A DNA stretch of 34,265 nt from NCBI GenBank assembly GCA_900299185.1, contig OMIV01000377.1, positions 1 through 34,265 on the forward strand. Direction: 5' to 3'. Position 1 is the stretch's first letter; each line of letters begins with the position of its first letter. The position numbers and the translations under genes are program-made. This DNA comes from Planctomycetaceae bacterium (GTDB lineage Bacteria; Planctomycetota; Planctomycetia; Planctomycetales; Planctomycetaceae). The notes under the pieces were generated by a model, which saw only the letters and a program-made list of their open reading frames with translations, was not told the origin of the DNA and did not search any database. This document shows positions 12,056 to 33,773 of this stretch, one piece after another.

Positions 12056-14488
12056 ATGATGCACGACTCCGTTCAAACAACCACTCACTCCACATCGTTG
12101 GTCTCACGCTGCATAGAAGGGTTGCTGCGCTGGCGTGGGCTGCTGCTTGTTGGCGTGGCGTTGCTAACGGTGGTGATCTGGCCGCTCGCCGATCGACTGC
12201 AATTCGACCAGTCGATCGAAACGCTGTACGCCGCCGATGACTCGCATCTCATCGATTACCTCGAAAGCAAACGACTCTTTGGTGGTGACGAACTCCTCAT
12301 CATCGCTTGGAATCAGGACAACCTGTTTGAGGGTGATTCGTACTCGATCACTCCCGACGTCAGTCGCGATATTAAGGCGTTCGCTGAGCGAGTTGGCCAA
12401 GTTCCCGGCGTTGAAGAAGGTTCCATTCAGCACGCCCCGGCCGCGTTAGCGTTTCCTTACGAACGACACCGAGTGGCCGAGATGGTGGAAGGCATGTTGC
12501 TGGGCAGCGATCGTCGAACGACGGCTGTGATCGCTCGTTTGACGCCAGAGAAGTCTGCCAGCGTGCCGCGCGCTGAAACGTTTCGGCGGATTCGTGAGTT
12601 AGCTCAGAGTCACAATCCGCCTGCTGTGGTTGTGGGTGAGCCAATCCAAATCAATGAGATGTTTCGCTTGGTCGAACAAGACGGGCATCTGCTGTTCTTG
12701 GTCTCGCTGATGATTCTCGCGGCCATCTTGGTCATCGTCCTGCAGAGCGTTCGTTGGGTGATCTTTCCTTTGGTCGTGGTGGCTTTGACCGTGCGCGGCA
12801 CGCAGGCCATGTTCGTGGTGTTGGGTGTAAAGCTCAGCATGGTGAGTTCCATGTTGAACTCGCTGGTGACCGTGATCGGTGTCGCGACAGCCATGCACTT
12901 GGCGATGAAGTATCGCGAACTGCGTTCGGACCATCCGCCAGAAAAGGCGCTGTCGCTGGCGATGGCAAAGCTGTTGGGCCCACTGTTCTGGACGACGTTA
13001 ACCACGGCCTATGGCTTTGCCGTGGTGATGACCAGCAAGGTTACGCCGTGTCGCAGCTTCGGCATGATGATGGCCGCGGCGACCATGATGGTGCTCGTTG
13101 TTGTCTATCTGGTCGTGCCGTTTTGCTTGCTGGGAATGGAGCGGCTTTCTCGTTTACGAGCATCAAGTGCTGATGGCTCGCCTGCGTCTGAGAAGCTCAC
13201 CATCTGGCAACGCTGGTTCGGTGATCCGGCAGCCGCTCCGGCTGAAGAACAACTTGTGCGCGGCCTTTCCAAGATCGTGCATCTGGCTGATCGACATCCG
13301 CGCGGCGTGATGATCGGGACGCTGTTGCTCGTGGCTTGGGCCGGTTGGGGACTGACGAAGATCGATGTCGAAACCGACTTCAGTCGCAACTTTCGCGACA
13401 ACAGCGAATTGGTTCGCTCGCTGAACTTTGTCGAGACTCGGCTTGGTGGTGCAGGCACTTGGGAAGTGAGCTTTCCGGCTCCTCGCGAATTGAACGACGA
13501 ATATCTCGACAAGGTCCGCAGTCTGTCGGAGCGACTGCGGTCCGAGTTGCTCATTACTCCCGAACAAATGCAGCAACGCGGTGAGGGCGATGGCAAGCTG
13601 ACCAAGGTCGTGGCTGTGACCGATGGTTTGGATTTGATTCCCAAGAAGATCGGCATTGGTTTCTTGTCGAAGACGATCTCGCTCGAGCAACGCTTAGCGA
13701 TTCTCGACAACCTGCCCGGCAGTGTGCTGTCGAGTCTCTACAACGCCGAGTCGGGGCGCATGCGGCTATTGTTGCGAGGGCTCGAACGGCAACGCTCTGA
13801 CAAGAAGTTGCAGTTGATCGAGCGCGTGCAGTCGATCGTTGAGGACGCCTGGTCGACCGTCGCTGTGGCGGCAACATCGAATGCAGAGAGCAAGGACGCG
13901 AGTGCTATCTCGAATCACAAAGTCAGCACGAGCGGGCTGTTCGTGCTGCTGACGTTTTTGATTTCGAGCTTGATGGAGGATCAAGTCACCAGCTTCGTGC
14001 TATCGAGCGTGGGCATTGTGGTGATGATGAGTGTTGAATTTCGGAGCTTGAAGATTGGCCTCATCGCGCTCGTCCCGAATGTGTTTCCCATCGTGATGGT
14101 TGTGGGGACGATGGGTTGGTTTGGGCTTCCCATTAACATTGCGACGGCCATGATCGCGAGTGTGTCGATGGGGCTTACGGTCGATTCCAGCATCATCTAT
14201 CTGGATGACTTCTTAACCGCGCGGCGCAAAGGTTTGTCGGTGCGTGCGGCGTTGGATGGGACTCAGGCTCATGTGGGACGCACGCTGGTCTTCACCAACT
14301 TGGCACTTGTCGCCGGCTTCTGTGTGCTGACTCTGTCGCACTTCATCCCGCTGGTTTACTTCGGGTTGTTGGTCAGCGTGGCGATGGCCGGAGGTCTCGT
14401 CGGCAACTTGTTCTTACTGCCGCTCTTGCTGCGGACGTTTCAACGCGATGCCGTGACTTCGAGCGAATCTCAATTGCGGAGTGACTGA
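12056..14488 (+). CDS. MMPL/RND family transporter
   Basis: An 810-residue inner-membrane protein with the two-fold RND layout: a first helix near residues 24-44, a periplasmic domain (about 55-205), six helices (about 210-360), a second lead helix (about 415-432, MIGTLLLVAWAGWGLTKI), a second periplasmic domain (435-620) and six more helices to the end. Acidic and polar residues in the central helices (for example SMGLTVDSSIIYLDDFL) fit the proton path of MMPL/sterol-sensing-type exporters. The family exports lipids or hydrophobic compounds using the proton gradient. No membrane-fusion or outer-membrane partner is adjacent, which is common for the MMPL branch. The start at 12056 is the first of two consecutive ATGs; no ribosome site is visible. 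Confidence 0.88.
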   Translation: MMHDSVQTTTHSTSLVSRCIEGLLRWRGLLLVGVALLTVVIWPLADRLQFDQSIETLYAADDSHLIDYLESKRLFGGDELLIIAWNQDNLFEGDSYSITPDVSRDIKAFAERVGQVPGVEEGSIQHAPAALAFPYERHRVAEMVEGMLLGSDRRTTAVIARLTPEKSASVPRAETFRRIRELAQSHNPPAVVVGEPIQINEMFRLVEQDGHLLFLVSLMILAAILVIVLQSVRWVIFPLVVVALTVRGTQAMFVVLGVKLSMVSSMLNSLVTVIGVATAMHLAMKYRELRSDHPPEKALSLAMAKLLGPLFWTTLTTAYGFAVVMTSKVTPCRSFGMMMAAATMMVLVVVYLVVPFCLLGMERLSRLRASSADGSPASEKLTIWQRWFGDPAAAPAEEQLVRGLSKIVHLADRHPRGVMIGTLLLVAWAGWGLTKIDVETDFSRNFRDNSELVRSLNFVETRLGGAGTWEVSFPAPRELNDEYLDKVRSLSERLRSELLITPEQMQQRGEGDGKLTKVVAVTDGLDLIPKKIGIGFLSKTISLEQRLAILDNLPGSVLSSLYNAESGRMRLLLRGLERQRSDKKLQLIERVQSIVEDAWSTVAVAATSNAESKDASAISNHKVSTSGLFVLLTFLISSLMEDQVTSFVLSSVGIVVMMSVEFRSLKIGLIALVPNVFPIVMVVGTMGWFGLPINIATAMIASVSMGLTVDSSIIYLDDFLTARRKGLSVRAALDGTQAHVGRTLVFTNLALVAGFCVLTLSHFIPLVYFGLLVSVAMAGGLVGNLFLLPLLLRTFQRDAVTSSESQLRSD

Positions 14489-16472: not shown

Positions 16473-17084
16473 CTATTCATCCTCGGACTTCGAAGTCAGC
16501 CGAATCTTTTGAATGCCGAGTTCATTCGCGATATCGATGACTTGCACGACCGCGTCGTGAATTGCTGCCGGATGCGCGTCGATGACGAGTTCGGCTTTCT
16601 CTGCGGTGCGACTGGTACGGATTTTGGCGGACAACTCGGTCGGTGCTGTCGCCACGTCGTCGACGAAGTAGTTATTGCGTTCGTTGATTGCGACCACGAT
16701 GGAGGCTTCGGCAACGTCTTCAAAGTCGACGCTGCTGGATGAACCGCCGCCTGAGCCATCGTCTTTCTTCTGAGCCGTTGGCGGTGGCGTGGGGAGCGTC
16801 TTTTGTTCGATGTAACGCGCGGTGAGGATGAAGAAGATCAGCAGCAACATCGTCACGTCGACCATCGGTGTGAGGTCGAGCTCGCCGAACTCATTTTCTT
16901 TCTTCGCCGAGCCACCGAAACCGTCTTCTTCTTCGCCTTCGAAGTGATGCTCGTCTTTCAGTTCCGGCGCGGGGATTGTGATCTTGTTCTTACAGTTAGG
17001 ACACTCCACCGACCGACCTGCCATCTTTTCAGGGCAGGCGACTCGCTTTTGACAGTGTTTACAGCGAAATCGAATCTCGCTCAT
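16473..17084 (-). CDS. ExbD/TolR family protein with N-terminal zinc ribbon
   Basis: A 203-residue biopolymer-transport protein. The N-terminal 35 residues form a zinc-ribbon-like module (CKHC at 8-11, a Cys at 17, CPNC at 28-31), followed by an acidic linker. Then comes the ExbD core: LDLTPMVDVTMLLLIFFILTA with the membrane helix and its conserved Asp, a Pro/Gly/Ser-rich periplasmic linker, and a TolR-like C-terminal domain ending in EDE. ExbD works with ExbB as a proton channel that energises outer-membrane processes through a TonB- or TolA-like partner. It is the last gene of the minus-strand trio; AGGA about nine bases upstream supports ATG 17084. A cytoplasmic zinc ribbon on ExbD is unusual. 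Confidence 0.88.
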   Translation of the reverse strand: MSEIRFRCKHCQKRVACPEKMAGRSVECPNCKNKITIPAPELKDEHHFEGEEEDGFGGSAKKENEFGELDLTPMVDVTMLLLIFFILTARYIEQKTLPTPPPTAQKKDDGSGGGSSSSVDFEDVAEASIVVAINERNNYFVDDVATAPTELSAKIRTSRTAEKAELVIDAHPAAIHDAVVQVIDIANELGIQKIRLTSKSEDE

Positions 17085-17192
17085 GGGGGATGGTCCTCGG
17101 TCAATCTTGTCTGTCTTCGTCGCTCAATCGTTGGTCAATTCATTTTGAGCTAAGTGACGAACGATCGAGCACTGCAGACGAACATCGGCTAG

Positions 17193-17642
17193 CTATTTCT
17201 TTTTGTCCTGCACTGCGATGCCCAGCTTGACTCCGTCAACCTTGGCAGCGGCTTTAAGAACTTGCTGCACGACACCGTGAGGCACCTCGCGGTCGGCCAT
17301 AATGATCACGTTGGTCTTTTGCTTGCGGAGACCGTCTTCGACAAAGGCTGGCACGCCAGCAACTGTGCCTTCTTTGTTTTCGTCGCCGTAAAGAATTGAT
17401 GCCTGCTGAGTGTTGGGATTGTTCTTGATCGTGATGACAGAAGCCGATTCCTTCTTCATGGCACCGCCGTGCTCGGCGGCTGGCACGTTTGCATCCATGC
17501 GGGGAGTCATGGCCTGCAACACGATGAAGTACATCAGCAAGATGAAGGTGCAGTCGATCAACGGAGCCACGTCGATTTCTTCGTCGTGCTTCGCCTTCTT
17601 GCGCTTAGGCGCCTCCAACCCGCCGCCATCACCGTGAGACAT
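17193..17642 (-). CDS. ExbD/TolR family protein
   Basis: A 149-residue ExbD with the standard plan: a short basic cytoplasmic start (KRKKAKHDEE), a membrane helix EIDVAPLIDCTFILLMYFIV with the conserved Asp, and a periplasmic domain (about residues 55-146) containing NVIIMADREVPHGVVQQVL. It would form the stator/proton channel with ExbB. AAAGG lies about eight bases before ATG 17642. It sits between exbB-like and zinc-ribbon exbD-like genes, so two different ExbD subunits are probably present in one complex. Confidence 0.9.
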   Translation of the reverse strand: MSHGDGGGLEAPKRKKAKHDEEIDVAPLIDCTFILLMYFIVLQAMTPRMDANVPAAEHGGAMKKESASVITIKNNPNTQQASILYGDENKEGTVAGVPAFVEDGLRKQKTNVIIMADREVPHGVVQQVLKAAAKVDGVKLGIAVQDKKK

Positions 17643-17734
17643 TGCTGGGCCTTTCTGTGGGACCGATGCTCAACTTCAAGACTCGAACCGAGTGCCAGGC
17701 AACTCGATTAAGACTGTCGAGTATTCGCCGCCAG

Positions 17735-18403
17735 CTACTTCTTGCCCTTGGCCAATGAGGTCTCAAGTTCGTCGAAGAACTCACCCATGTAGATTCGGAC
17801 GTCAGTTTCCAATCGTCCCACGCGCACATGGAACAACGCACCCAACAGAGTCAGCGGAATGGCGACCGTGAGTCCCAGAGCCGTGGCGAAAAGGGCTGTA
17901 CCGATACCACCAGCGAGCTTACTGGGGTCACCGCCCGAGGCACCCATTTCGGCGAGCTTACTAAACGTCACAACGATGCCGAGCACCGTGCCGAGCAGTC
18001 CCAGCATCGGACCCGATCGCACACAAGTACCGACCCAAGCGAGTGTGTATTCCAACTCGGTGGTGACTTCTCGTTCGAACTCTTGATTGACGAGTCGCTT
18101 CAACTTGGCGAGTGGCTTGGTGCGATTTGCTAAGGCGACCAGGATCAATTGAGGAACTGCTTTGGACCAATACTGCGGCGAGTCACACAGTTCGGCAACA
18201 CCGTCGTAATCTTGCTTGTCGAGCATGTCGCGAACTTCATCGAGGAAGTCGTCCGCAGCCTTATCGTTGGGGAACCGTTTGGCTTTGATCCGTCGGAACA
18301 ACAGCAGCGCGAGGTATGCACCGAACAACGCCACGATTGCGAGGACTGAGTACACGAAGAACTCGAGACCCAATAGGACGGATTTGAGATTCGAAGAAAC
18401 CAT
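17735..18403 (-). CDS. MotA/TolQ/ExbB proton channel family protein
   Basis: A 222-residue polytopic membrane protein with the ExbB order: first helix near residues 12-34 (FFVYSVLAIVALFGAYLALLLF), a large cytoplasmic loop, then two helices, the second within GPMLGLLGTVLGIVVTFSKL and the third within AGGIGTALFATALGLTVAIPLTLLG. These contain the signature Gly/Thr residues lining the proton path. It should couple proton flow to mechanical work with the two downstream ExbD proteins. The ATG at 18403 has GGAG just upstream and gives the family N-terminus; a GTG at 18535 would add 44 unrelated residues. It is divergent from the TonB-like gene and heads the minus-strand operon. Confidence 0.92.
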   Translation of the reverse strand: MVSSNLKSVLLGLEFFVYSVLAIVALFGAYLALLLFRRIKAKRFPNDKAADDFLDEVRDMLDKQDYDGVAELCDSPQYWSKAVPQLILVALANRTKPLAKLKRLVNQEFEREVTTELEYTLAWVGTCVRSGPMLGLLGTVLGIVVTFSKLAEMGASGGDPSKLAGGIGTALFATALGLTVAIPLTLLGALFHVRVGRLETDVRIYMGEFFDELETSLAKGKK

Positions 18404-18581
18404 GTCCGCTCCGAGAGATGAGATTTCGAAGTGAGCCAAAGACGTGAAGGCTGGTGAAAGAGGGCGGCCTTTTAGCTTCTTCAAAGTGTGCCGACAACAC
18501 TTCAAGAGAGGGTTGATGGCACGGCTGTGACTCACGTGTTTGAGGGCCTCATCGCGTCATTACGGAGCGGATGAGGGCTCG

Positions 18582-18610
18582 TTGACACTCTGAAAAACGG
18601 GGCCTACATT
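18582..18610 (+). promoter_or_regulatory. Sigma-70-type promoter for the TonB-like operon
   Basis: TTGACA (18582-18587) is a perfect -35 box, followed by exactly 17 bases and TACATT (18605-18610), a 4/6 match to the -10 consensus. Transcription would start near 18617, leaving a leader of about 140 bases. The inverted repeat ending at 18576 sits just upstream of the -35 box and could be an operator. Confidence 0.65.
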
Positions 18611-18626
18611 CGGACCGCATCTCTTT

Positions 18627-18670
18627 AAGCGAGGCTTGTTCTGTCTTGGAACACACTTGATGCCTCGCTT
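18627..18670 (+). promoter_or_regulatory. Two-tier leader stem-loop
   Basis: AAGCGAGGC (18627-18635) pairs perfectly with GCCTCGCTT (18662-18670). Inside the 26-base loop, TGTTC and GAACA can form a second 5-bp stem. It lies in the predicted 5' leader about 87 bases before the ATG. No T-tract follows, so it is more likely an mRNA stability or regulatory structure than a terminator. Confidence 0.5.
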
Positions 18671-18756
18671 TGGTCGCGTGCTTCCATGCGACGCCTTTCA
18701 TTTAGAAATCGATCTCGCCGTTCGGCGCTAATCATCCCCCTCTCAAGGCTCTCTCT

Positions 18757-19737
18757 ATGGCAGCGACTCAAGCACCGGCCAAACCTAAGCCTGTGATGGG
18801 AGTGACGAAGTACGACAAGGCTTCGACGGGCGTCTTACTGACGGCTTTCACGTTTGCCATGTTGCTGGCTGGTCTCATCGCATTGTGGTTCAGCGTGCGA
18901 ACTGTCGAGCCCGAACCGCCAGTCATGCCGGTGGAGATCATCGCTCGCGAAGGCGGTTACGAAGACGGCGACATCGACGGCACTGGTGAATTCAATCTCA
19001 ATCCCACCGACCCGAACTCAGCGTTGGCCCCTGGTATGGCCGAGCAATCGTCGGGAGCCACCGAAGCGCTTTCTGATATCGCAGAAGCTGTTTCGTCGGA
19101 TGTCAGCGATAGCCTCAGCGGCGAAGGGTCTGCAGATGTCGTGCAAGCTTTCGATACCGCGATGGCTGCTCCGAGTGCGAATAAGAATCCGACCGGCGAA
19201 GTCTTCGAGGTCGGCGGAACGGGATCGGGCGGACGAGGCGGTAGTCCCACAGGTAATGGCAAGAAGCCGTTGGGAACGGGCGGTGGCTTGCGCGGCGGTA
19301 TCGCTCGTGAAGATCGCTGGGTCGTTCGCTTCGATGAAAGCACGCTCGACGAGTACGCCAAGCAGCTCGACTTCTTCAAGATCGAGCTCGGAGCGCTCTT
19401 CCCCGATGGCCGCTTGGTGATGATCACCAACATGGCTGCGGCCAAGCCAACGGTGCGAGAGACTCGGTCCGGCAAGGGTGAGCAACGACTCTATTTCCGC
19501 TGGCGAGGTGGAGGTCGACAGAAGGTCGATAACGACCTCTTCAAGAAGGCGGGTATCGCTAGTGACAACGCCATGATCCTGCACTTCTACGATCCCAATA
19601 CCGAGAACTTGCTGGCCAACGTCGAGCAGCAGTATCGCAATCGCAAGACGACAGAGATTCGCAAGACTTACTTCGCGGTTCGCAAAGAAGGCAATAACTA
19701 TCGGTTCTCTGTGACCAGTCAGAGCTACATGAGATAG
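18757..19737 (+). CDS. TonB-like single-pass envelope protein of unknown family
   Basis: A 326-residue protein shaped like TonB or TolA: a short cytoplasmic start rich in Pro/Lys/Ala, one membrane helix at about residues 26-48 (GVLLTAFTFAMLLAGLIALWF), then EPEPPVMPVEI and a long low-complexity Ser/Ala/Gly/Asp region (about 60-180, including a GTGSGGRGG stretch). It ends in a folded domain (about 185-326) starting RWVVRFDEST. That domain does not resemble the TonB C-terminal fold; it has several predicted strands and ends FRFSVTSQSYMR. Facing the ExbB/ExbD genes across a shared promoter region, it is the natural candidate for the partner that carries motor force through the periplasm. AAGG at 18745-18748 supports the start. 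The role is inferred from architecture and position. Confidence 0.75.
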   Translation: MAATQAPAKPKPVMGVTKYDKASTGVLLTAFTFAMLLAGLIALWFSVRTVEPEPPVMPVEIIAREGGYEDGDIDGTGEFNLNPTDPNSALAPGMAEQSSGATEALSDIAEAVSSDVSDSLSGEGSADVVQAFDTAMAAPSANKNPTGEVFEVGGTGSGGRGGSPTGNGKKPLGTGGGLRGGIAREDRWVVRFDESTLDEYAKQLDFFKIELGALFPDGRLVMITNMAAAKPTVRETRSGKGEQRLYFRWRGGGRQKVDNDLFKKAGIASDNAMILHFYDPNTENLLANVEQQYRNRKTTEIRKTYFAVRKEGNNYRFSVTSQSYMR

Positions 19738-19808
19738 GCCCTTCGACTCAGCTTCGACCGCTTGCGGTCCAACAACGGATTCAACGCCACAACAAGGAAC
19801 GACAGCAG

Positions 19809-22800
19809 ATGGCAGGCAAAGGCGGTAAGCCCGATTGGCTCGATGACGACGACCTCGACCCGATCGGTGACGATGACGTTCTGGATGGCGACGACCACCT
19901 CGATGGCGATGATCTCCTGGAAGACAACGCGCCGGTTCTGAAACGCGGCGGCGGTGGTCGACGTGATGAGCCTGAGTCACGCAAGGGCGCAGATCGCGAG
20001 AAAGAAAAGGATCGCGGTGCGGACCGTCACGATGAAAAAGACTCGGCCAAGGACCGTAAGAAGGAACGCTCTGAACGCGACCTAAGACGAGAGCGAGCGG
20101 TCCGACCGGGAGAGCAAGACATCACGAAGTCGCCGCTCATCCTGGGATTGAGCGTGACGATCGTCGTGCTCGCTCTGCTGAGCGGCATCTACTTCTTCAT
20201 GATCAAGCGTGAGACAACCAACGCGCAGCTCAAAGCGATCGATGAGCAGATTTCAGGCGGTCAGTACGCGACGGCGATGATCTCGCTCGAACAAATGATT
20301 GTGGATCACCCGAAGGACGAGATTGGCGATCAAGCTCGCATTCGTTTGGGGAAGGTCCGAGTCGATAAGTCGATTAAGACGGCTGCTCCCGAATGGAATG
20401 CTGGACTCGATGCGCTCAACAAAATGATCGCTGATTGCCGCGAAGTGAAATCGTTCGCCGAAGAGAATGCGGCGTTAGCTGAGTACGCGAAGACGATCGC
20501 GATTGGTGCGCTCGATACAGCCGAGAAGAATCGTTCGCCGGAACTCATCAAGGTTTCCGACGAAGCTGTGATCCTGCTCGAGCGCTACTCGGATGCGGAT
20601 AAGCCACCCACGGCTGCGAAGGCGAAGATCAAAGTCGCGAAGGAAGCCGCTGAAGCTGCCATCTTGAAGGCTACGACCACTCAAGCGACGTACGCCGAAA
20701 TCGATCGCCTCAACAAAGGCGGGAAGCCCATTGAAGCACTCGCGTCGCGGCGACGATTGCTGGACCGCTACCCGGACCTGGAGAAAGATCGCAAGCTCAG
20801 CCAATTGCTCGAACAAACATTGGTCTCCGAGCAAAAGGCCGTGAAGGTTGATGACTCCAATCGAGCCGCAGTGCGCGAGGATCGGCCGCTGTTGAAGAAG
20901 CCCTTGGCGCTCACGCTCCACACACGCGTCTTGTCTGATGAATCATCGGAAGGCCGAACCGTTTGGGCGGTGTCCGGCGGATGTCTTTACGGCATCGACA
21001 CCATCACTGGTGACCCAGTATGGCGTCGCGGTATTGGGACGGATTCGCCGTTCTTTCCGATCTCGATTGATGCCGCTGTCCCGGCACTGTTGATGTTCGA
21101 TACGCGATTCGAAGAGTTGATCTTCGTGAATCGTCAGACCGGTGAATTGATTTGGCGTCAGCCACTTGGCGAACGAGCCAGCGGCGCTCCGTTGATTCAC
21201 AACAATCAGATTTACCAAGGCACGATCGGCAACTCGTTGTTCCGCATCGATGTGCAAACAGGCGAGATCACCAGCAATCTGATCTTCTCGCAGCCTGTGG
21301 TATCGCCGCCGGCGCTGACTCGCGATGGTCAACATCTCGTGATCCCCGGCAATGAAGCCATCTCCTACACCTTGGGAGTACAGCCGCTGGAGTGCGTGCG
21401 TGTCCTGTTTAGCGGCCAGCGACCAGGTGCTGTGCAAGTGCCATTGATGCCGATGGGCGCCACCTTGCTGATGATCGAAAACGATCAAATCAACGGTGCC
21501 AACCTCCGCGTCTTTGATGCTGGCAAGACCGAGAAGATCATGCCGGAAGTTGGCACCGCTCGTGTCGCCGCGCAAGTTAAAGATCGCGTCGTGCTGCGAG
21601 GCAACCAGCTCTTCATTGCTGGCGAACGCGAGTTGTTGTCGGTCTACACGGTTTCGGATGATCCTGAGCAACCTAAGTTGCTGCCCATCGCCAAGCCTCC
21701 AACGCAGATCGAATACACGGGTCCGATCTTTATGCACGCTGGTGCGGGAGGTCGGCTGTGGGTGGCGAGCGACAACCTGAAGCAGTTCGAATTGAAGAAT
21801 GATACGCTCGGTGAGGCGACGACTAAGCGGCTCTATTTGGGAGCAACAGGTCAGCCCATTCAGTCGATCGGCAAGAACCTTTTCATTGGTCGTCAACTTC
21901 TGGAAAGCGGTGCCTTGTCGCTGCTGCAAGTTGATGGCGAAGAGATGGTGGCGGCTTGGAAAACAGTTGTGGGTTGTAGCCTGCTGACGGCTCAAGTGGC
22001 TGGTGAGAATCTGGTTTGCGTCAATGCGTCGGGCGACGTGTTCCAAGTGCCGTTGACGGAAGTCGAAGCCGGTGGCTTCCGCTTCAAGGTCGAGACGTCA
22101 GTGAAGATTGCAGAGGGCACGACTGACCCGGTCTTCGCTGGTCGACTAGCAGGCGGAAAGCTGGCCATTGCTTGTGGCGGTAAGGAGCCTCGGCTTTGGA
22201 CGATCAACACGATCGGCAAGATCGAGCAAGAGTATGTGCTCGATGGGCCGCCGGTTGGTCCTCCGGTTCCGCTGAGTGGCGGAGTGACGGTGCCGCTCGC
22301 AAATAAGTTGCGAACGTTTGGTGTCACTGGCGGGGCTCGAGTTGACGACTACCTGTCGGTGATCGGTCAGCAAGCTGCAGCTCGAAACGCTTGGTCTCAT
22401 GTCTTGCCGCTTGATGCGACTCACTTGGTTGTCATTGATGCCGAAGGCAAGTTGTCACGGTTGGAGTATCGCACCACGCCGACAGCTCACTTGCAGCAGT
22501 TGGATCAAGTGGCACTCGGCAACCCGGTCGACGTGAGTCCGGTGCTCGACAAGGGCAAGCTCTATGTCACTGACGCCAGCGGGCGATTGCAGATTCTTAA
22601 CGTCAATGGCTTCGATCGAATTGCCGAAGCGAAGCTCGCGAATCCGGCAGTTGGCAAGTTGGCATTGGCCGGCAATCGATTGTTGGCTGTGACTTCGACC
22701 GGTGCCTTGGAGTGCTATGACACCGATCAGAACCTGAAGCAGCTTTGGTCTGTTCCTCTCGCTAGCGACCTGCTGGCCGACTCGGCCATGCTCGAACAAG

Positions 22801-22988
22801 GCAAGTTGTTGATCGCGACGCAAGCCGGCCATGTGAAAGCCTTGAACCCAGATACGGGGGCTGAGTTGCAGTCGATCATTCTGGATAATTCGATTGAATA
22901 TGGTCCGGTGAAAGCCGGGAAGTTCATCCTCGTGGCGACGGTTGATGGAGCACTTCATCGCGTCGAAAGCGTGCTGGGAGGCGAGTGA
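19809..22988 (+). CDS. Membrane-anchored TPR-like and PQQ-type beta-propeller protein
   Basis: A 1059-residue protein. Residues 1-108 are a disordered cytoplasmic tail: first very acidic (DDDDLDPIGDDDVLDGDDHL), then a mixed-charge Arg/Lys/Asp/Glu run. One membrane helix follows (about 109-132). Residues 135-330 are helical and TPR-like (GGQYATAMISLEQMIVDHP; GGKPIEALASRRRLLDRYP). From about 350 to the end there are propeller blades of the PQQ/BamB type (GGCLYGIDTITGDPVWRRG; NRQTGELIWRQPLG; GHVKALNPDTGAELQSII). The propeller would lie in the periplasm and bind a partner protein or ligand; cofactor use is not implied. AAGGA at 19794-19798 precedes the ATG. A small GACCG-CTTG-CGGTC hairpin (19756-19769) lies in the gap from the previous gene. 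Its TGA overlaps the next ATG. Confidence 0.85.
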   Translation: MAGKGGKPDWLDDDDLDPIGDDDVLDGDDHLDGDDLLEDNAPVLKRGGGGRRDEPESRKGADREKEKDRGADRHDEKDSAKDRKKERSERDLRRERAVRPGEQDITKSPLILGLSVTIVVLALLSGIYFFMIKRETTNAQLKAIDEQISGGQYATAMISLEQMIVDHPKDEIGDQARIRLGKVRVDKSIKTAAPEWNAGLDALNKMIADCREVKSFAEENAALAEYAKTIAIGALDTAEKNRSPELIKVSDEAVILLERYSDADKPPTAAKAKIKVAKEAAEAAILKATTTQATYAEIDRLNKGGKPIEALASRRRLLDRYPDLEKDRKLSQLLEQTLVSEQKAVKVDDSNRAAVREDRPLLKKPLALTLHTRVLSDESSEGRTVWAVSGGCLYGIDTITGDPVWRRGIGTDSPFFPISIDAAVPALLMFDTRFEELIFVNRQTGELIWRQPLGERASGAPLIHNNQIYQGTIGNSLFRIDVQTGEITSNLIFSQPVVSPPALTRDGQHLVIPGNEAISYTLGVQPLECVRVLFSGQRPGAVQVPLMPMGATLLMIENDQINGANLRVFDAGKTEKIMPEVGTARVAAQVKDRVVLRGNQLFIAGERELLSVYTVSDDPEQPKLLPIAKPPTQIEYTGPIFMHAGAGGRLWVASDNLKQFELKNDTLGEATTKRLYLGATGQPIQSIGKNLFIGRQLLESGALSLLQVDGEEMVAAWKTVVGCSLLTAQVAGENLVCVNASGDVFQVPLTEVEAGGFRFKVETSVKIAEGTTDPVFAGRLAGGKLAIACGGKEPRLWTINTIGKIEQEYVLDGPPVGPPVPLSGGVTVPLANKLRTFGVTGGARVDDYLSVIGQQAAARNAWSHVLPLDATHLVVIDAEGKLSRLEYRTTPTAHLQQLDQVALGNPVDVSPVLDKGKLYVTDASGRLQILNVNGFDRIAEAKLANPAVGKLALAGNRLLAVTSTGALECYDTDQNLKQLWSVPLASDLLADSAMLEQGKLLIATQAGHVKALNPDTGAELQSIILDNSIEYGPVKAGKFILVATVDGALHRVESVLGGE

Positions 22989-25579
22989 TGACGAGCTTGA
23001 AACATGCGTGGTGGCGGCCGCTTATCGGTGTGTTGGCTTTGCTTTGGGCGATTCCGGTTTACTCGCAAGAGTCGACCGACGAATCGCTGAAGAAGGTCGA
23101 CGAGATGCCGATTCCGACGGTGGAAGAATTACTCACCAAGCCTCCCGTCGATTGGATCGTGTTGAAGGCGCCACGGCGAGATGAAGTCATCGTCGTGCAG
23201 CCCGTGTCTCCTCGTCCGGACACGATCAGCAAGATGAATAAGCAGCTCGACGACTTGAAGAGTTCCGCGCGGCGTCCCAAGCAAGAGCAGGGCGAGAGTA
23301 CCGACCAGTATCGGGAACGCATTCGGCAACTGATGGATGAGGCCGAGAACTTGCTCATCCTGCTTCCTGAAGTGAAGCCGCCGATGAAGAAGGAAGAGGG
23401 CGATCCTGATGCTCCGGCTGCTCCCAAGCCTGACCCGGCAACCCCAACTCCCGGCAATCCGGCTGATCCCAACGCCGCCAAGAAAGAAGACGACGGACGT
23501 GAGTTCAAGCTCAACGTTCAGAAGCACATTGATCGCATCATCTATCACGAAGATCTGATGCTGAAGCGGGCCGACATTCTGATGAATGAAGGCAAGCTTG
23601 GACCGGCCTTTGAAATGTTGCTGGTGCTTGAGCGTCGCTATTCAGAGTGGCCCGGCTATACCGATCGACGAAACCGTTTGATCTTCGAAGAAGGCAAGCA
23701 GCAAACGGCAGCAGGCAATGTGGAGGCCGCTTTCGCTTACTTTGAAGAATTGCATTCGATCGCGGCGGCTTATCCCGGCTTGCGACAAGAAATGGGTGTT
23801 GCTGCGAACTCGCTGATCGAGACCGCATACACCAAGGGCGAGATCATGCGAGCTCGCTTCTATCTCTTGCGGCTCCGCAAGCGAGATCCCGAACATCCCA
23901 TTGCCGCGAAGTGGACGTCGACCTTTACCAAACGGGTTGATGAGCTTCTCGACAAGGCGAAGGCGTCGCGAGAGCAAGGCAAGCATTCCGAAGCCTTGGA
24001 AATGGTGGACGAAGCCAGCCGTGTGTGGCCGATTCATCCGCAGCTCCGCAACTTCCACCGTTCCGTTGCCAATCGTTATCAGGTCTTGAACGTTGGCGTC
24101 GTTCGCTTTGGTGGCGATCCCGGACCGTTCCCATTTGCGTCTCAAGAGGAACGCCGGTTTGAGCAACTCACTGCGGTCGAGTTGTTCGAGATCGCCAAGT
24201 TCGATCGCAATCCAATCTACCAGTCTCGCTTTATCGAAGAATGGACTCCGACGGATCTTGGCCGACAGATTGTCTTCAATCTGCGACCGCGGCGACTCAC
24301 ATGGGAATCCAGTCCTGTAATTTCTGCGTCACAAGTGGCCGGGACATTGGCTGCCAGACTTGATCGCAACTCGCCGCAGTACGACGAACGGTTCTCGAAC
24401 TACGTGCGCTCCTTAACCGTGAAGTCACCGACTGAGTTCGTTGTGAATCTCTCAACGATTCCCGTTCGACCGCAGGCCATCTTCCGATTTCCGGTGGTTG
24501 GTCCAAATGACTCGGCATCAACTGCAAACCCTGCTGTCGGAGCTGTGCCATCAGCGGCGGTTGCTTCGTCTCGTTTCAAGTTGATCGAGAAGACTGCTGA
24601 CCGTCAGGTCTATCGACGAACTGTGCCAGAGCCCGACACAACGGCTCAGTTTCACGTGGCGGAAGTTGTCGAGAAACGCTATCCGACTCACGAGGCTGCC
24701 GTTCAAGCGTTGCTGCGCGGCGACGTTTCCGTTTACCCGTCCCCTCCGATTTGGTTGGCGGGTCGCATTGCTGCGAGCGACGAATTTCAAATTGAACCCT
24801 TCGGGATTCCGACAACTCATGTTCTGCAATTCAACCCGAGGAGCGAGCCTCTCAAGAACAATGAATTCCGTCGGGCCTTGGCCTACGGCATCAATCGAGA
24901 CCGGGTTCTTCGTGAGACGATGTTCCGCAACGAGAAGTCGGTCGAGACTCGCTCGCGTCTGACGACGGCGGTCTTCCCCAGTAAGAGCTATGCCTTCAAC
25001 GCGCAGGTCGAGCAAACGAAGTACGACATCCAATTGGCGTTTGCATTGGTCACGGTTTCTAAGAAGCGGCTCGGTGGTGCGGTGCCAGAACTCACCATGA
25101 TCTGCGAACCCGATGAGTCCATCATTCGCTGTGCTGAAGAGTTCGTGAAGGAGTGGGCTCGCATTGGCGTCAAAGTGAAGCTGGTGTCTGACCCGAAGGC
25201 GACGCCACCAGAGAGCTGGGATATTGCTTATCGGACAGCCAAGTTGGCGGAGCCTCTCACTGAGTTGTGGCCCTTCTTGACGATGAGTCGAGACGCACGA
25301 GTCAATGATCTGGAGCATCTGCCCGATTGGTTGCGGCAACAGTTGATCGAGCTGGAGCAAGCTCCCGATATCAACGCGTCGATCGACATGCTGCGTCGAC
25401 TGCACTTCCGGCTAAACGAGTTCCAGTTGTGCGTTCCGTTGTGGGAGATCGACGACGTCATGGTGATTCGCAAGAACATTCTCGGCGTGCCTCCGGGGGC
25501 GCTGCATCCTTTCCACAACTTAGAACGGTGGATCGTGCAGCCGTGGTTCCCGACTGACTCGTTGGGAGAATCGACATGA
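22988..25579 (+). CDS. Exported TPR plus SBP_bac_5-type substrate-binding protein
   Basis: An 863-residue exported protein. A signal peptide (about residues 1-27, ending VYSQ) is followed by a Pro-rich spacer, a helical TPR-like region (about 190-360; KLGPAFEMLLVLERRYSEWP, NVEAAFAYFEELHSI), and then a family-5 solute-binding domain (about 385-850). The SBP domain shows EFRRALAYGINRDRVL and later WDIAYRTAKLAEP and FQLCVPLWEIDDVMV, matching peptide/nickel-type binding proteins. No ABC permease or ATPase is nearby, so it probably serves the neighbouring motor-linked complex rather than classical uptake (inference). ATG 22988 shares its A with the upstream TGA and has GGGAGG six bases before it; GTG 22985 is an alternative. 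Confidence 0.85.
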   Translation: MTSLKHAWWRPLIGVLALLWAIPVYSQESTDESLKKVDEMPIPTVEELLTKPPVDWIVLKAPRRDEVIVVQPVSPRPDTISKMNKQLDDLKSSARRPKQEQGESTDQYRERIRQLMDEAENLLILLPEVKPPMKKEEGDPDAPAAPKPDPATPTPGNPADPNAAKKEDDGREFKLNVQKHIDRIIYHEDLMLKRADILMNEGKLGPAFEMLLVLERRYSEWPGYTDRRNRLIFEEGKQQTAAGNVEAAFAYFEELHSIAAAYPGLRQEMGVAANSLIETAYTKGEIMRARFYLLRLRKRDPEHPIAAKWTSTFTKRVDELLDKAKASREQGKHSEALEMVDEASRVWPIHPQLRNFHRSVANRYQVLNVGVVRFGGDPGPFPFASQEERRFEQLTAVELFEIAKFDRNPIYQSRFIEEWTPTDLGRQIVFNLRPRRLTWESSPVISASQVAGTLAARLDRNSPQYDERFSNYVRSLTVKSPTEFVVNLSTIPVRPQAIFRFPVVGPNDSASTANPAVGAVPSAAVASSRFKLIEKTADRQVYRRTVPEPDTTAQFHVAEVVEKRYPTHEAAVQALLRGDVSVYPSPPIWLAGRIAASDEFQIEPFGIPTTHVLQFNPRSEPLKNNEFRRALAYGINRDRVLRETMFRNEKSVETRSRLTTAVFPSKSYAFNAQVEQTKYDIQLAFALVTVSKKRLGGAVPELTMICEPDESIIRCAEEFVKEWARIGVKVKLVSDPKATPPESWDIAYRTAKLAEPLTELWPFLTMSRDARVNDLEHLPDWLRQQLIELEQAPDINASIDMLRRLHFRLNEFQLCVPLWEIDDVMVIRKNILGVPPGALHPFHNLERWIVQPWFPTDSLGEST

Positions 25580-27354
25580 GCAGGGATCAGCAAATGTTCG
25601 AGAACTCGATGTGGTCTAGGTCGGTTGGCTCCGTTCGTTTCGTGTTCGTCGCCTTGGCTTGCGCAGGCTTGATGACGGGAATGCAATTGGCATTCGGTCA
25701 AGAGGCTACGCCACCGGCGGGTAATGCGACCGCTGCTCCGAGTGCGGCACCTGCCAGCGCGAGCCCTCCAGCAGAGGCCGCTCCGGCGGCGACGACGGAC
25801 ACCGCAAACGCCCCGGCTGCTAGTCCGGCAACTCCGGCTGCTGCGGCCATTCCAGCAGGTCCGCCTCCAAAGCCTGCCATTGAAGTCCGACCCTATGACG
25901 TTGAACTCACTTTGGCGTTTGCGGAATCAGCAAGACTCGGGGCTGACTTTCAACGCAGTGTGTTGGATGAAGTGCGAACGACTGCCGATCGCAACATTGG
26001 TCCGATGTGGAATCTGAAGATCGCTTCGTCGGAATGGCTGACTCCTCGTAATCGCGCGAGTGTGGCTCGCCTGACCGTTGCTCAAATGAAGGATCGATCG
26101 AAAGAAGGCGACTTCGACAAGATCTATCCGGTGAGCATCGAAGCTGTTGGTGCTCAGTATGTCGTGAGCTGTCGTGAATGGTGCCGAGAGTCTGAGATTC
26201 TCTCGCCCGTCAAAACAGTAACGACGTTGGATCGCCGCATGGTTGCAACGGAAGTCTTCCGCTTGCTGCAAGGACTATTTCGATCGGTGACGCATATTGA
26301 CGATGGGACTGATACGACGGCTCGCATGAAGATTCGAGCGGGCGAGTTCTGGCCTGCCGATCCTGCCTTTAGTCAGGTCGCAGACAATTCGATTTTTGTG
26401 CCGTTCACTCGAAACTTTGGTCGTGATCGGTCGCTGCGAGCGATTCAGTTTGTGCCTTGGACATATCTCGCTCCGCAGAGTGTCGCTCGATCGAGATTGG
26501 ACTGCCGAGTTGATACGGGTGTCCGAGTGAGGTTTGCTCCTAAGAAGCGTGTCGAGTGGCGAGCACTCACGTTGAAGGTCACGCTCAAAGAAACAGAGTT
26601 GACCGTGCAGCCTCAGCGTAAGACGGCGAAGCCGCTCGTCGGCTACATGCTCGCAGTCTATGACGAGTTCCCGAAGGATCCTCCAAAGAAGCCTGAGTCT
26701 GCTGTCGATGCTCCCGCAGATGCCAAAGCCGATGGCGATAAGAAGCCTTCGCAAGCCGAGCAACCACCTGCTGATCCGGGGCCAGTGCCGCTCCTCGTGC
26801 GAACCGATCGAGATGGCCGTGTGTTTGTGCCTGCGAATCCCGCGAAGCCTTTGCAGTGGGTCTTCATTCGCAGTGGCAAAGAATTGCTCACAAAGTTTCC
26901 AATGGTCGCCGGTGCCGAAGCCAAGATGACCGCGAATTGCCCTGACGACACCTTGCGATTGGATGTTGAAGGTCAGATTGCATTACTCGAAGGTGAACTC
27001 GTTGACGTCATTGCCAAGCGTGCCGTCACGATTGCCATGATCAAGGCTCGAGCCAAGAAGAGTGAATGGGCCAAGGTTGATGAAGGCTTCGAGTCGCTCA
27101 AGAAGCAGCCCAAGCTCGACGACTTCAAGAAGAGTGTCGACCTAATTCAAGTGCCTGCCATGAAGGCCGCACAGGCGAAGAAGAACGTCATGGCCGAAGA
27201 TCGCATTCGAAAGCTCAGCGGCAAAGTGCTGGAGATCGCGCAGTTCCATCTCGACGAAGAGAAGGTCACCGAACTCAAGCAGGAAATGGATGAGACCAAG
27301 AAGGCAGAGCTTAAGAAGGAAGATGATGATCAGCCTAAGTTGTTGATCAAGTAA
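25576..27354 (+). CDS. Secreted or anchored protein of unknown function, last gene of the envelope operon
   Basis: A 592-residue protein with an N-terminal export signal (hydrophobic FVFVALACAGLMTGMQLAFG, cleavage near GQ) and a Pro/Ala/Thr-rich linker (about residues 45-100). A folded domain follows (about 103-350; VELTLAFAESARLGADFQRS). A second acid/Lys-rich linker (about 370-400) leads to a small beta domain (PLLVRTDRDGRVFVPANP, resembling a carboxypeptidase-regulatory-like fold) and a charged helical tail that could form a coiled coil (about 470-590). No known family is recognised. Its ATG overlaps the upstream TGA (ATGA), with GGGAG seven bases before it. It is probably a structural or adaptor part of the same envelope complex (inference). 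Confidence 0.8.
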   Translation: MSRDQQMFENSMWSRSVGSVRFVFVALACAGLMTGMQLAFGQEATPPAGNATAAPSAAPASASPPAEAAPAATTDTANAPAASPATPAAAAIPAGPPPKPAIEVRPYDVELTLAFAESARLGADFQRSVLDEVRTTADRNIGPMWNLKIASSEWLTPRNRASVARLTVAQMKDRSKEGDFDKIYPVSIEAVGAQYVVSCREWCRESEILSPVKTVTTLDRRMVATEVFRLLQGLFRSVTHIDDGTDTTARMKIRAGEFWPADPAFSQVADNSIFVPFTRNFGRDRSLRAIQFVPWTYLAPQSVARSRLDCRVDTGVRVRFAPKKRVEWRALTLKVTLKETELTVQPQRKTAKPLVGYMLAVYDEFPKDPPKKPESAVDAPADAKADGDKKPSQAEQPPADPGPVPLLVRTDRDGRVFVPANPAKPLQWVFIRSGKELLTKFPMVAGAEAKMTANCPDDTLRLDVEGQIALLEGELVDVIAKRAVTIAMIKARAKKSEWAKVDEGFESLKKQPKLDDFKKSVDLIQVPAMKAAQAKKNVMAEDRIRKLSGKVLEIAQFHLDEEKVTELKQEMDETKKAELKKEDDDQPKLLIK

Positions 27355-30704: not shown

Positions 30705-33700
30705 ATGACCAATGATCTCATCAATAAGTCGCGGCTGTTCGTCGCAGTGCTGGGCACTGTGGTCGTGATCTATTGCGTGATCGTGCTGGGCTATGTGGGG
30801 ACGACTCCCGACCTCGGACTGCGTGGGTTGTTGTCTGATCGCGGCGATATGTCGGCGCCTCAAGGCATGCTGATTCGGGCCGTTGTAGAGCTCGATGCGG
30901 AGGGCGTGGCTCCTCGATCTGGCGACGTCCTAGTCAACGTTCGCGATAAACCCATTCGGTCGTTTCAGGACTTTGCATATTCGCTGCAAGCTCTTCGCAA
31001 TGCGCCGATCGACTCGGGCGGAAGGCTCGCCAATCGCAGCGACATGGTTGACGACTCGGCGGGACTGCTCCCTGCTCTGGTCGAGACGGATGACGGCAGT
31101 CGTTTTGTGCGTGTCGAGTTTCAACGCGCCGGTAAACGCGATGTCGTTCGGACTCGATTGCAGGTGAAGTCGCTTCCTTTAGGCGAGGTCCTGCTGTCAT
31201 TCGTTTGGCTGACGTTGCAATTTCTGATCTTTGCGGTGGGAGCCTTGGCGGCTTGGCATCGGCCGTTCGACCGAGTCGCGCTGCGCTTCTTCACGATGTG
31301 CGCGGTGACGATGGGGGCCTTCATCGGTGGCTTTCACTGGTGGGTGCTAGCCGGAAGCTTGGTGCTGACAGCTCCCTTCTTGGTATCTGCTGTGTTTGTG
31401 CCCGCTGTCTCGTTGCACTTCTTCTTGTGTTATCCGCGACAGCTTGAATTGCTGACGAAGTATCCTCGCAACACATTGGCGGTGATCTATTCAGTGCCGC
31501 TTGTGGCGATGGTCGTGATGTTGTCGTTGAGCATCTTCAGCCGCGTGCTGACGTCGCCATTCATGAGCGAGACCGCGATTGAGTGGGTGCAAGGCAGTTT
31601 GATGCTGCTGCGAGGGGCGATTTACAGCTATCTCGTTTTCGCCGCCGGTTGCTTCTTTGTGATGCTGGTGGCATTGGCCAACGACTACTTCTCTGCGACA
31701 ACGGCGATCGAACAAAACCAAGTGAAGTGGATGTTTCGAGCCGGACTCTTTTCGGCCATTCCCATCACTTACACGCTCTATCTCGCTTTGTTCGATCGAA
31801 CTGAGTTCGCGCTGGGTAGTGCTCGTCTGCCGATGTTCTTGGCGAGCTTGTCGTTCATGCTCGCGTATTCGATTGGCATCTCGCGGTTCAAGCTGATGCT
31901 GGTCGACGAGTTCGTTAGCAAAGGGATGTTGTATCAAGCGGCGACACAAGGACTGACCATCGGCTTTGGTATCTTTGTCGCACTGGTCGCGTACTTGGCG
32001 ATCAACCTCAATGTTGCCGGAGCGGTGCCAGGCCGATTCCAGCAAGTGCTTTCTGTTGGCGTGCTGCTGACGTTCTCGGTCGTGGTGCTCTCGTGGAGTC
32101 GCGATCGCGTGCAGCAGATGATCGACCGACGCTTTTACCGCGAGAAATACCAACTCGATAAAGCTCTGCAGCGAGTCAACAGGTCGCTCGATCGATTGGC
32201 TGACCGCAACTCGCTGGGGCAGCGCATGCTGGCTTCGTGCAAAGAGGTGCTGACGGCTCGATTCGCCGCGCTCTATCTGCGAGATGGCGGGCGCGGCAGC
32301 TTTCAGTTGCTGGTTGTCGATGGCACGAGTGGCTTGCCTGAGCGACTGGATGTGCCCGATGAATTGCTGGCAGAGTTGTCGAACGATTCTGCTTTCAGCG
32401 CGATCAGTAGCCCGAGCGTGGGGGACGAACCCGAGTTGATTCGTAGCTTGCGGCGGTTTCGGATCGAGATGCTGCATGCGTTGGAGTCAGACGACGAGAC
32501 CGAAGGCTTGATCGCGCTCGGGCGAAAGTTGAACGGCAGTGGTTACACCGCTGAGGATCTGACGTTTCTCAATACGCTCGGCCAATTCACAACGGTCGCG
32601 CTGCGGTCAGTAAAATTACACCAAGACTTCTCACGACTGAACGATGAGCTGCAGCTCAAGGCCAGCAAGATTGATGAGCAGAAGCGGCAGATCGCGATCA
32701 TGCAGGCCGAGCTGACTCAGCAGGGAGAACCCAGGCCGGTTGAAGAAGCGACCGAATTGCGTCGCGAGATGATCAAAGGCAATAGCCGCGCGATTCGTGA
32801 TGTGTTGGAGACGGTCCGCAAAGTGGCCGCGACAGAATCAACGGTGCTCATTCAAGGTGCGAGTGGAACGGGCAAGGAATTGCTCGCTCAGGCCATTCAT
32901 GACAACTCGCCGCGCCGAGCTGGTCCAATGGTTCGAGTGCATTGTGCGGCGCTCTCGCCAAGCTTGCTGGAGAGCGAACTCTTCGGCCATGTGAAGGGCG
33001 CGTTTACTGGGGCTCATCAAAACCGAGTCGGGCGTTTTGAAATGGCCAATGGAGGAACGTTGTTCCTCGACGAAATTGGAGACATCTCGCTCGAGACGCA
33101 GATCAAATTGCTGCGAGTCTTGCAGACACGATCGTTCGAACCAGTGGGAGGAACTCGCACGGTGACGGTTGACGTGCGGTTGATTACAGCCACTCATCAG
33201 AACTTGCCAAAGCTGATTGCTTCTCGGCGATTCCGCGAGGATCTCTATTACCGCTTGAACGTCGTCAACGTGACGCTGCCATCGTTGCATGAGCGAGCAG
33301 ACGACATCTTCGAACTCGCGCTGCACTTCTTGAAACGAGCTTCTGTGGCGGCGAACAAGTCGATCACCAGTATCGATCCAGACGCGATGGAGGTGCTCCA
33401 ACGCTATTCATGGCCTGGAAACATTCGCGAGTTGGAAAACGTCATCGAGCGAGCGGTTGTGATGTGCGACGGGCCGCGAATCACTGTGAAGGAACTCTCG
33501 ATCGATCTATCGGGAGCCCCTGTCAGTTCGATGGGGACTATGCCGGGCTTGATGACTGATGCATCGTTGGAAAAGGTGTTGAGGGTCCCATCGAGTGTCT
33601 TGGCTGAAGTCCGCAAGACTGCGACGTCTCGACAACAATCAGATGCAGAAGAAGTCGCGTCGCTGCGCCGAGCATTGGAAGAGTGCAAAGGCAATAAGGC

Positions 33701-33773
33701 TGACGCAGCTAGATTGCTCGGATTGCCGCGGAGTACTTTTTACAGCAAGCTCAAGAAGGCAGGGATTCAGTGA
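30705..33773 (+). CDS. Membrane-bound sigma-54-dependent transcriptional activator with PDZ-like and GAF regions
   Basis: A 1022-residue regulator. In order: a first membrane helix (about residues 11-31), a PDZ-like extracytoplasmic domain (about 45-155; [20 protein letters not shown]), a block of several membrane helices (about 165-463), a juxtamembrane [16 protein letters not shown] segment, a GAF domain (about 490-640), a coiled coil (640-680), an AAA+ sigma-54 interaction domain (about 690-930) and a Fis-type helix-turn-helix (about 985-1022). The AAA+ domain has Walker A GASGTGKE (718-725), the RpoN-contacting loop GAFTGA (765-770) and Walker B LFLDEIGD. It should sense an envelope or membrane signal and activate RNA polymerase with sigma-54. 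No sigma-54 promoter was found nearby, so its targets are unknown. Its TGA overlaps the next gene's GTG. Confidence 0.9.

Follow-up and report, generated by a model that had tools for sequence, protein, structure and literature searches.

A conserved seven-gene ExbB/ExbD cluster of Planctomycetia as a candidate proton-driven trans-envelope machine

What an ExbB channel and two ExbD proteins might energise when the genes beside them match neither the Ton nor the Tol-Pal system is the question raised by a seven-gene cluster in a 34,265-nucleotide stretch of DNA from a Planctomycetaceae bacterium (assembly GCA_900299185.1, contig OMIV01000377.1, positions 1 to 34,265 of the forward strand; hereafter the window). 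A preliminary description, made from the sequence alone, had placed ExbB and two ExbDs on the minus strand and a four-gene set on the plus strand, and the open reading frames and Pfam matches agreed with this arrangement (Table 1). The genes and their order, the domain content, the predicted topology and the class-wide distribution are conserved, and the conservation of gene order exceeds chance. The cluster is a new form within the ExbBD-powered envelope systems, with a known motor layout and a different transducer and partners. We give about an even chance to the reading that it encodes a trans-envelope machine of Planctomycetia which is energised by proton motive force (PMF), has a Tol-like envelope role and is linked to phospho-signalling. 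A literature search found no description of this cluster.

Co-conservation was evaluated by a synteny survey over relatives, which the preliminary description had set as a test beforehand. Relatives of the TonB-like protein were found in genome contigs (115 in all), and 80 loci were kept. All seven genes stood together in 53 surveyed loci, corresponding to 45 distinct ones; the lack of co-occurrence that would have refuted the preliminary description was not observed. The order TonB-like, ExbB, ExbD, ExbD, propeller, substrate-binding protein (SBP) and last protein, on one strand, was identical in 46 of these 53 loci, and five more showed this order plus an extra or split gene. The motor trio was inverted as in the window in two loci, both from one congener present in two collections. 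The motor genes therefore face the operon in the window genus, as described, whereas in the usual order they sit inside it. Three partly overlapping sets of genomes were compared, in which contig ends counted as misses. In SBP-centred stretches from 33 other genomes (set A, without the second copies L039 and L044), the propeller gene was present in 32, the last gene in 31, the TonB-like gene in 25, ExbB and a pair of ExbDs in 21 each, and the full set of seven in 19. All seven were also found in 21 of 32 long TonB-like-centred loci of named records (set B) and in 13 of 40 loci of a hand-picked spread over the class (set C). In addition, the last three cluster genes in the window show overlaps of the 4-nt type (propeller end 22988 and SBP start 22985; SBP end 25579 and last start 25576). 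The propeller–SBP gap in relatives had a median of −4 and was at or below zero in 69 of 105 pairs, and the SBP–last gap was at or below zero in 74 of 95, with loci not de-duplicated and start codons picked mechanically and often over-extended. The overlaps may suggest the fixed stoichiometry that had been read from them but do not show it.

Table 1. Parts of the seven-gene cluster, in window coordinates
Feature	Position	Strand	Evidence and details
ExbD2: cytoplasmic zinc ribbon (CxxC...CxxC), then ExbD/TolR transmembrane (TM) helix and periplasmic domain	16473..17084	-	Pfam
ExbD1, second non-identical ExbD	17193..17642	-	Pfam ExbD 60.1 bits
ExbB/TolQ-like motor channel	17735..18535	-	Pfam MotA_ExbB 81.3 bits
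TonB-shaped transducer candidate	18757..19737	+	TM helix 18-47, disordered Gly-rich linker, C-terminal domain 184-324 (~19306-19734)
Inner-membrane protein with periplasmic BamB-like propeller blades	19809..22988	+	TM ~114-132; PQQ_2 8.3e-19
Exported protein, tetratricopeptide repeat (TPR)-like plus family-5 SBP	22985..25579	+	SBP_bac_5
Exported last protein	25576..27354	+	Domains from AlphaFold2 model, Foldseek and VIA
Last-protein domains (predicted)			FlgT/TolB-N-like alpha/beta (~105-266), beta domain, immunoglobulin (Ig)-like (~336-456), helical (459-591)

The distribution of the cluster was assessed by profile search in 119 class genomes with completeness of at least 95%. The TonB-like protein was found in 113 and the last protein in 111 of them (108 had both proteins, 5 the TonB-like protein alone, 3 the last protein alone and 3 none), usually with one transducer match per genome. 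The transducer alignment (A2) comprised the window and 64 of the 80 loci, with L083 and L115 left out for a stop in the matched stretch and 14 left out by choice; the last-protein alignment (A3) held 32 rows from L071-L150 only (>350 bits, 400-720 aa). Alignments A1 and A3 hold or may hold rows from genomes later surveyed, and such genomes match by construction. Over the phylum, the transducer profile matched 23 of 294 genomes, with at most seven candidates scored per genome, so that distant forms may be missed. The 21 strong matches all lie in the class and the two weak ones (G088, G140) miss the C-terminal domain, which speaks against a general transducer of the phylum. One TonB-like gene (L117) lies in a record titled as an Alphaproteobacteria metagenome-assembled genome and probably represents a mis-binned contig; the other kept loci carry planctomycete titles or just 'bacterium'.

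The arrangement varies within the class. In some genomes of family f1 (e.g. G002, G316, G250 and G409), the TonB-like gene lies separately from the other cluster genes. In family f2, which appears to be Isosphaeraceae-like, the four envelope genes stand together and the motor is encoded elsewhere; ExbB there reached 168-192 bits in seven of seven genomes and was followed by two ExbDs in six of seven loci, with only one picked up in L244. Among 28 genomes tested, cluster-type ExbB (168-312 bits) stood clear of paralogues (≤101 bits) in 14. The other 14 contained only paralogue-level ExbB (≤101 bits) and comprised seven f3 genomes, four of other class families and three from outside the class. 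In the ExbB tree, cluster members and paralogues were separated by two label changes with long branches, and the cluster member L184 was labelled a paralogue by score; a single origin is therefore allowed but not proven.

The motor proteins exceeded the Pfam cut-offs for MotA_ExbB and ExbD, the ExbD2 match covering residues 67-199 at 80 bits, and their nearest NCBIfam models were tolQ and tolR, both below cut-offs. The window ExbB was the top of eight ExbB matches in its own genome (293 bits vs. ≤96 for the rest). Its true start is probably internal, near 18403, as judged from alignment with relatives that start about there. The TM aspartate motif of ExbD was kept in 81 of 87 ExbD1-family members (>110 bits) and also in 94 of 101 in a second count, neither de-duplicated by locus. 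This finding suggested that ion flux matters. Moreover, ExbB kept GxxGTVxG in 17 of 17 aligned sequences, and cluster ExbB reads I(S/G/M)xAL at the position where E. coli ExbB has Glu before AL. Elsewhere in the same genome (L068:8318-14957, G000:C38), a further ExbB and two ExbDs precede a pair of SQHop_cyclase_C-like proteins, a possible second undescribed motor cluster. The other ExbB/ExbD loci of this genome were considered as the published von Willebrand factor A (vWA) system and rejected, none of eight neighbour proteins scanned being vWA.

The TonB-shaped protein had been said to lack a TonB C-terminal domain, and the profile analysis agreed. No TonB_C domain was found by Pfam at E ≤ 0.1, and hhalign against TonB domains from this genome and from related ones gave a probability of 0.2, compared with 99.9 for TonB halves against each other and 100 for halves of the transducer domain. 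No other Pfam or NCBIfam family matched the protein at E ≤ 0.1. Hydropathy indicated one TM stretch (25-43), and the AlphaFold2 model (65 rows) predicted a TM helix joined by a low-confidence linker to a C-terminal domain whose predicted local distance difference test (pLDDT) values were mostly >90. Foldseek returned no match to this domain at E ≤ 0.001, the best VIA Z score was only 3.4 and a profile search of the PDB with the transducer gave nothing credible; since the Foldseek and VIA comparison yielded no usable match, the domain is called unmatched rather than new. The SHLS motif is given for TonB, TolA and vWA transducers in the accessible text of PMC12204202. SHxS was found inside the transducer TM in none of the 65 rows, the single SHxS (L142) lying at or past the helix end, and seven of 65 rows had at least one His within aligned positions 14-50. 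Canonical TonB_C domains are patchy in a set of 40 genomes made up of the window's own and relatives, occurring in 11. The window's genome is one of these, with a separate canonical TonB_C protein encoded at G000:C123:20457-20690.

The propeller protein matched PQQ_2/BamB in Pfam and BamB structures by phmmer. Its single TM stretch by hydropathy (114-132) agrees with the membrane anchor that had been described, but the TPR-like repeats ascribed to it were not called by Pfam in the window protein, and two relatives gave sub-threshold YfiO or TPR_6 matches. The third protein of the operon matched SBP_bac_5 (75.7 bits, 5e-21), with DppA/AgaA as its phmmer relatives, and its N-terminus, judged by eye, looks export-type. 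Of the two domains attributed to it, the SBP is clear and the TPR appears only as a sub-threshold TPR_14 match (3.3e-4; 21.5 vs. 23.5 bits). The SBP protein was present in 34 of 40 genomes, its own included.

A recognisable family-5 SBP domain beside an ExbBD motor raised the possibility of a PMF-driven importer, a Ton variant that would import a peptide or oligosaccharide bound by its SBP, with the motor driving passage over the outer membrane or through the periplasm. OppC_N (PF12911) was found in 22 of the 40 genomes, the window's not among them. It was present somewhere in 20 of the 34 SBP-bearing genomes and was not found in the other 14 (G000 and 13 others). OppB-type BPD_transp_1_N (PF19300) was likewise found in none of these 14, compared with 11 of 14 control genomes, other ABC permease families being unsearched. 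Assembly gaps might hide a permease in some of the 14, although several are near complete (G008, G023, G030 and G038). These 14 genomes suggest that the SBP domain is kept without an Opp/Dpp-type importer, a point in favour of motor-powered import. They also bear out the described lack of an ABC importer in part, as the 20 other SBP-bearing genomes do have OppC_N. Against import, Pfam found no outer-membrane receptor among the cluster proteins, canonical TonB coexists in the 11 genomes mentioned above, and a near-universal system with usually one match per genome is more housekeeping-like. We consider the importer unlikely, and favour Tol-like housekeeping over nutrient import because of this distribution and the lack of a receptor in the cluster.

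The last protein had been described as a large secreted unknown. It carries one N-terminal hydrophobic stretch (17-35) and had no Pfam family at E ≤ 0.1, consistent with that description; NCBIfam gave two matches, both below cut-off (yidC_nterm, 4.8e-4; GltJ, 0.0053), and a profile search of the PDB found no credible sequence relative. The predicted fold was more informative than 'unknown' would imply. The AlphaFold2 model (33 rows) had a mean pLDDT of 85.6, and Foldseek matched it to FlgT (3w1e, 1.5e-8, probability 1.00), the LPHT ring (8z5n, 1.6e-8) and TolB (7mx5, 6.2e-5, probability 0.98), followed by GNA1162, LpoB and CsgG with E above 0.001. The Foldseek TM-scores were low because one or two model domains align. 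Furthermore, VIA returned 8z5n with Z 9.1 (202 aligned, root-mean-square deviation (rmsd) 8.3), FlgT with Z 8.8 and eleven TolB entries with Z 7.5-8.3 over model residues 102-266 (rmsd 2.9-3.7). Z scores of 8-9 are modest, and unrelated rows score like TolB: a designed helical bundle (464-574, Z 9.3), pilin-type Ig domains (~336-456) and F1-ATPase barrels (237-335). The FlgT/TolB-N likeness is favoured because Foldseek and VIA agree, and by prediction the last protein holds a FlgT/TolB-N-like domain. FlgT and TolB-N both belong to envelope machines that adjoin motors of the MotAB/ExbBD type.

This fold, together with the BamB homology of the propeller by sequence, would also suit a machine for assembling outer-membrane proteins or surface structures, with the propeller in place of BamB and the FlgT-like protein as a ring. 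BamB-type blades occur in many unrelated proteins, and the Pfam scan of the cluster proteins recovered neither a BAM nor a secretion family, which argues against an assembly role. In a Planctopirus limnophila essentiality screen, bamA was the sole essential BAM gene, as far as the accessible text reports (PMC10632474), in keeping with such a role. We regard the assembly machine as very unlikely on balance. The words ExbB, ExbD, Tol and TonB are absent from the accessible main text of that screen, and none of the terms is present in PMC12283558.

The link to signalling was examined through the cytoplasmic domains of relatives, which the preliminary description had not covered. The zinc-ribbon-like CxxC pair of ExbD2 was found in the window and in 72 of 72 relatives scoring >160 bits; among 102 proteins above 100 bits, the CxxC pair occurred in 74 and a kinase in 12, and the remaining 16, for the most part short ExbDs, had none of the two (loci not de-duplicated). 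In family f2, the ExbD2 proteins scanned (L243, L247 and L249) have another N-terminal extension that is not a zinc ribbon, with a sub-threshold GYF_2 match in one. In the kinase form, a Hanks-type Ser/Thr kinase domain is joined in frame to ExbD inside the cluster (12 loci, 10 distinct proteins). Five of these proteins were scanned and gave Pkinase matches of 152-172 bits; HRDxKP with a following DFG was present in 12 of 12, and the VAVK/AAVK Lys in 11 of 12, L057 starting inside the kinase domain. As the kinase forms were picked by GTxxYMSPE, that motif is no extra evidence. One example lies at L114:11187-12824, and its catalytic motifs look intact. In the propeller protein, an FHA domain facing the cytoplasm was over the cut-off in five of seven scanned (e.g. 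L041:5247-8939), and a small profile applied to the N-termini of 111 propeller loci classified 58 as FHA, 28 as other helical, 22 as short and 3 as other (100 distinct N-termini after de-duplication, 51 of them FHA). Of the 58 FHA loci, 37 also held an ExbD2, and the kinase was present in none of these; the remaining 21 had no ExbD2 on the stretch. The propeller proteins at all 12 kinase loci were short and lacked FHA. The kinase forms probably belong to a single lineage, in which case one event may account for this exclusion.

These kinase and FHA forms could also belong to a stress- or surface-sensing receptor, in which the channel would be used for signalling, with sensing by the periplasmic parts and inward relay by the ExbD2 kinase or FHA; domains of the SBP type have sensor functions in other receptors. 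Against this stand the window genus, in which both kinase and FHA are missing, and the mostly kept ExbD aspartate motif, with its suggestion of ion flux; this reading seems quite unlikely. According to the accessible part of PMC2754498, high salinity induces R. baltica exbB RB12053 and exbD RB12055, possible members of this cluster. The literature search found no report of a PMF motor to which phospho-signalling is directly coupled. The text of PMC11032199, on planctomycete kinases, contains no mention of ExbD, TolR or biopolymer, and the sole mention of kinase in the accessible text of PMC12505986 is a reagent.

Comparison with known systems places the cluster beside, rather than within, each of them. 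As in Tol-Pal (TolQ-TolR-TolA-TolB-Pal-CpoB), an ExbB/TolQ-type channel, an ExbD/TolR-type protein and a TM-anchored transducer share one cluster with a beta-propeller, a TPR-like protein and a TolB-N-like domain (by predicted fold). It differs from Tol-Pal in its two ExbDs, its added SBP domain and a transducer whose C-terminal domain shows no profile relation to TonB; its propeller is BamB-like and inner-membrane anchored, its TolB-N-like domain is on a separate protein, and it has no Pal, the OmpA domain being found by Pfam in none of ten window proteins scanned. OmpA-domain proteins were found outside the cluster in 38 of 40 genomes, and a peptidoglycan-tether protein may therefore exist elsewhere. 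With Ton (ExbB-ExbD-TonB) the cluster shares the motor and the TonB-like topology, whereas its transducer lacks TonB_C and the SHLS of the TM, and canonical TonB is separate in the same genome. No TonB-dependent receptor was found among the ten window proteins by Pfam, no genome-wide receptor search having been made. TolB_N (PF04052) was found in none of the 40 genomes. Replacement of TolB by the system was considered and is not supported: TolB_N matched 9 of 294 genomes of the phylum, weakly and never in the class, and its scarcity extends outside the class. With TonB_C, SHLS, receptor, TolB and Pal all negative in these searches, the original statement that the cluster fits neither Ton nor Tol-Pal is upheld.

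Similar motor layouts are known. The vWA transducers of the Planctomycetes–Verrucomicrobia–Chlamydiae group, as presented in the accessible text of PMC12204202, are encoded together with one TolQ-like gene and a TolR-like pair. The likeness extends to a TPR gene, to the two TolR-like proteins being unlike and to the sequence of TM, disordered linker and globular domain, but theirs has a vWA fold, an SHLS/His motif and other partners. No vWA was found in the cluster transducer by Pfam or in the Foldseek and VIA lists, which do not exclude vWA. The Agl-Glt and Nfs machines of Myxococcus also combine one TolQ-like with two TolR-like proteins and drive TPR-bearing envelope proteins, an arrangement shared with the cluster. 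Pfam and NCBIfam scans found no Glt or Nfs homologue among the window proteins, the sub-threshold GltJ match falling in a Pro/Ala-rich stretch. FlgT belongs to the H-ring of the Vibrio flagellum; the last protein resembles it in a two-domain fold by prediction only, and Pfam found no flagellar family among the cluster proteins.

We infer from these likenesses how a Tol-like machine might work. A 5:2 ion-driven motor is established for ExbBD and TolQR, and ExbB with two unlike ExbDs should form such a motor. Its core, with a probably heterodimeric ExbD1/ExbD2, would use the ion gradient to move the TonB-shaped protein, the natural motor output, whose docking must differ from that of TonB and whose unmatched C-terminal domain would engage periplasmic partners. 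The inner-membrane-anchored propeller, the TPR/SBP protein and the FlgT/TolB-N-like protein may form a periplasmic receptor or scaffold, in which the SBP domain would be a ligand sensor or partner-binding module and not an ABC feeder. Through the zinc ribbon or kinase on ExbD2 and the FHA on the propeller, the motor might report to phospho-signalling or be gated by it. The likeliest job would be Tol-Pal-like envelope and outer-membrane housekeeping, perhaps at division or budding, and not single-nutrient uptake.

Several observations weigh against this Tol-like machine. In family f3, which we take to be Gemmataceae, the transducer and last-protein matches were weak (last protein down to 3.6e-5), partial, scattered and apart in the loci read, with SBP in none of four genomes tested and cluster-type ExbB in none of seven. 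The lack of the SHLS/His motor-docking motif leaves TonB/TolA-style force transfer unestablished, and TolB loss does not track gain of the system, as TolB_N is scarce outside the class too. The cluster encodes no outer-membrane part, lipobox-like starts are rare (SBP 8/109, last protein 1/95, propeller 2/123 and transducer 2/149 loci, not de-duplicated), and the fold likeness of the last protein shows no function. Finally, non-flagellar relatives of the ExbBD-type motor carry a wide variety of domains according to the accessible part of PMC12505986, and the kinase and FHA fusions are therefore not by themselves outside the known kind.

The cluster bears on how planctomycetes power and coordinate their outer membrane. 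They are without recognisable FtsZ in the accessible portions of PMC5147048 and PMC10632474, TolB_N was absent from the genomes searched, and the cluster offers a short testable gene list. A bolder form of the Tol-like reading, which we advance only tentatively, is that of a third main type of envelope system driven by ExbBD, alongside Ton and Tol-Pal, ancestral to Planctomycetia and doing the outer-membrane work of Tol-Pal in FtsZ-less bacteria, with Ser/Thr phosphorylation gating or reading out the motor via the ExbD2 kinase and propeller FHA. If true, this would be a natural case of phospho-signalling wired straight into a PMF motor.

The flanking genes (esterase, DUF1570, sigma-54 activator and an open reading frame at 12056) were not co-conserved in a phmmer comparison over 42 loci, sigma-54-type matches occurring in two only. 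The large GAF and sigma-54 activator, absent beside the cluster in most relatives, lies downstream of it at window positions 30705-33773.

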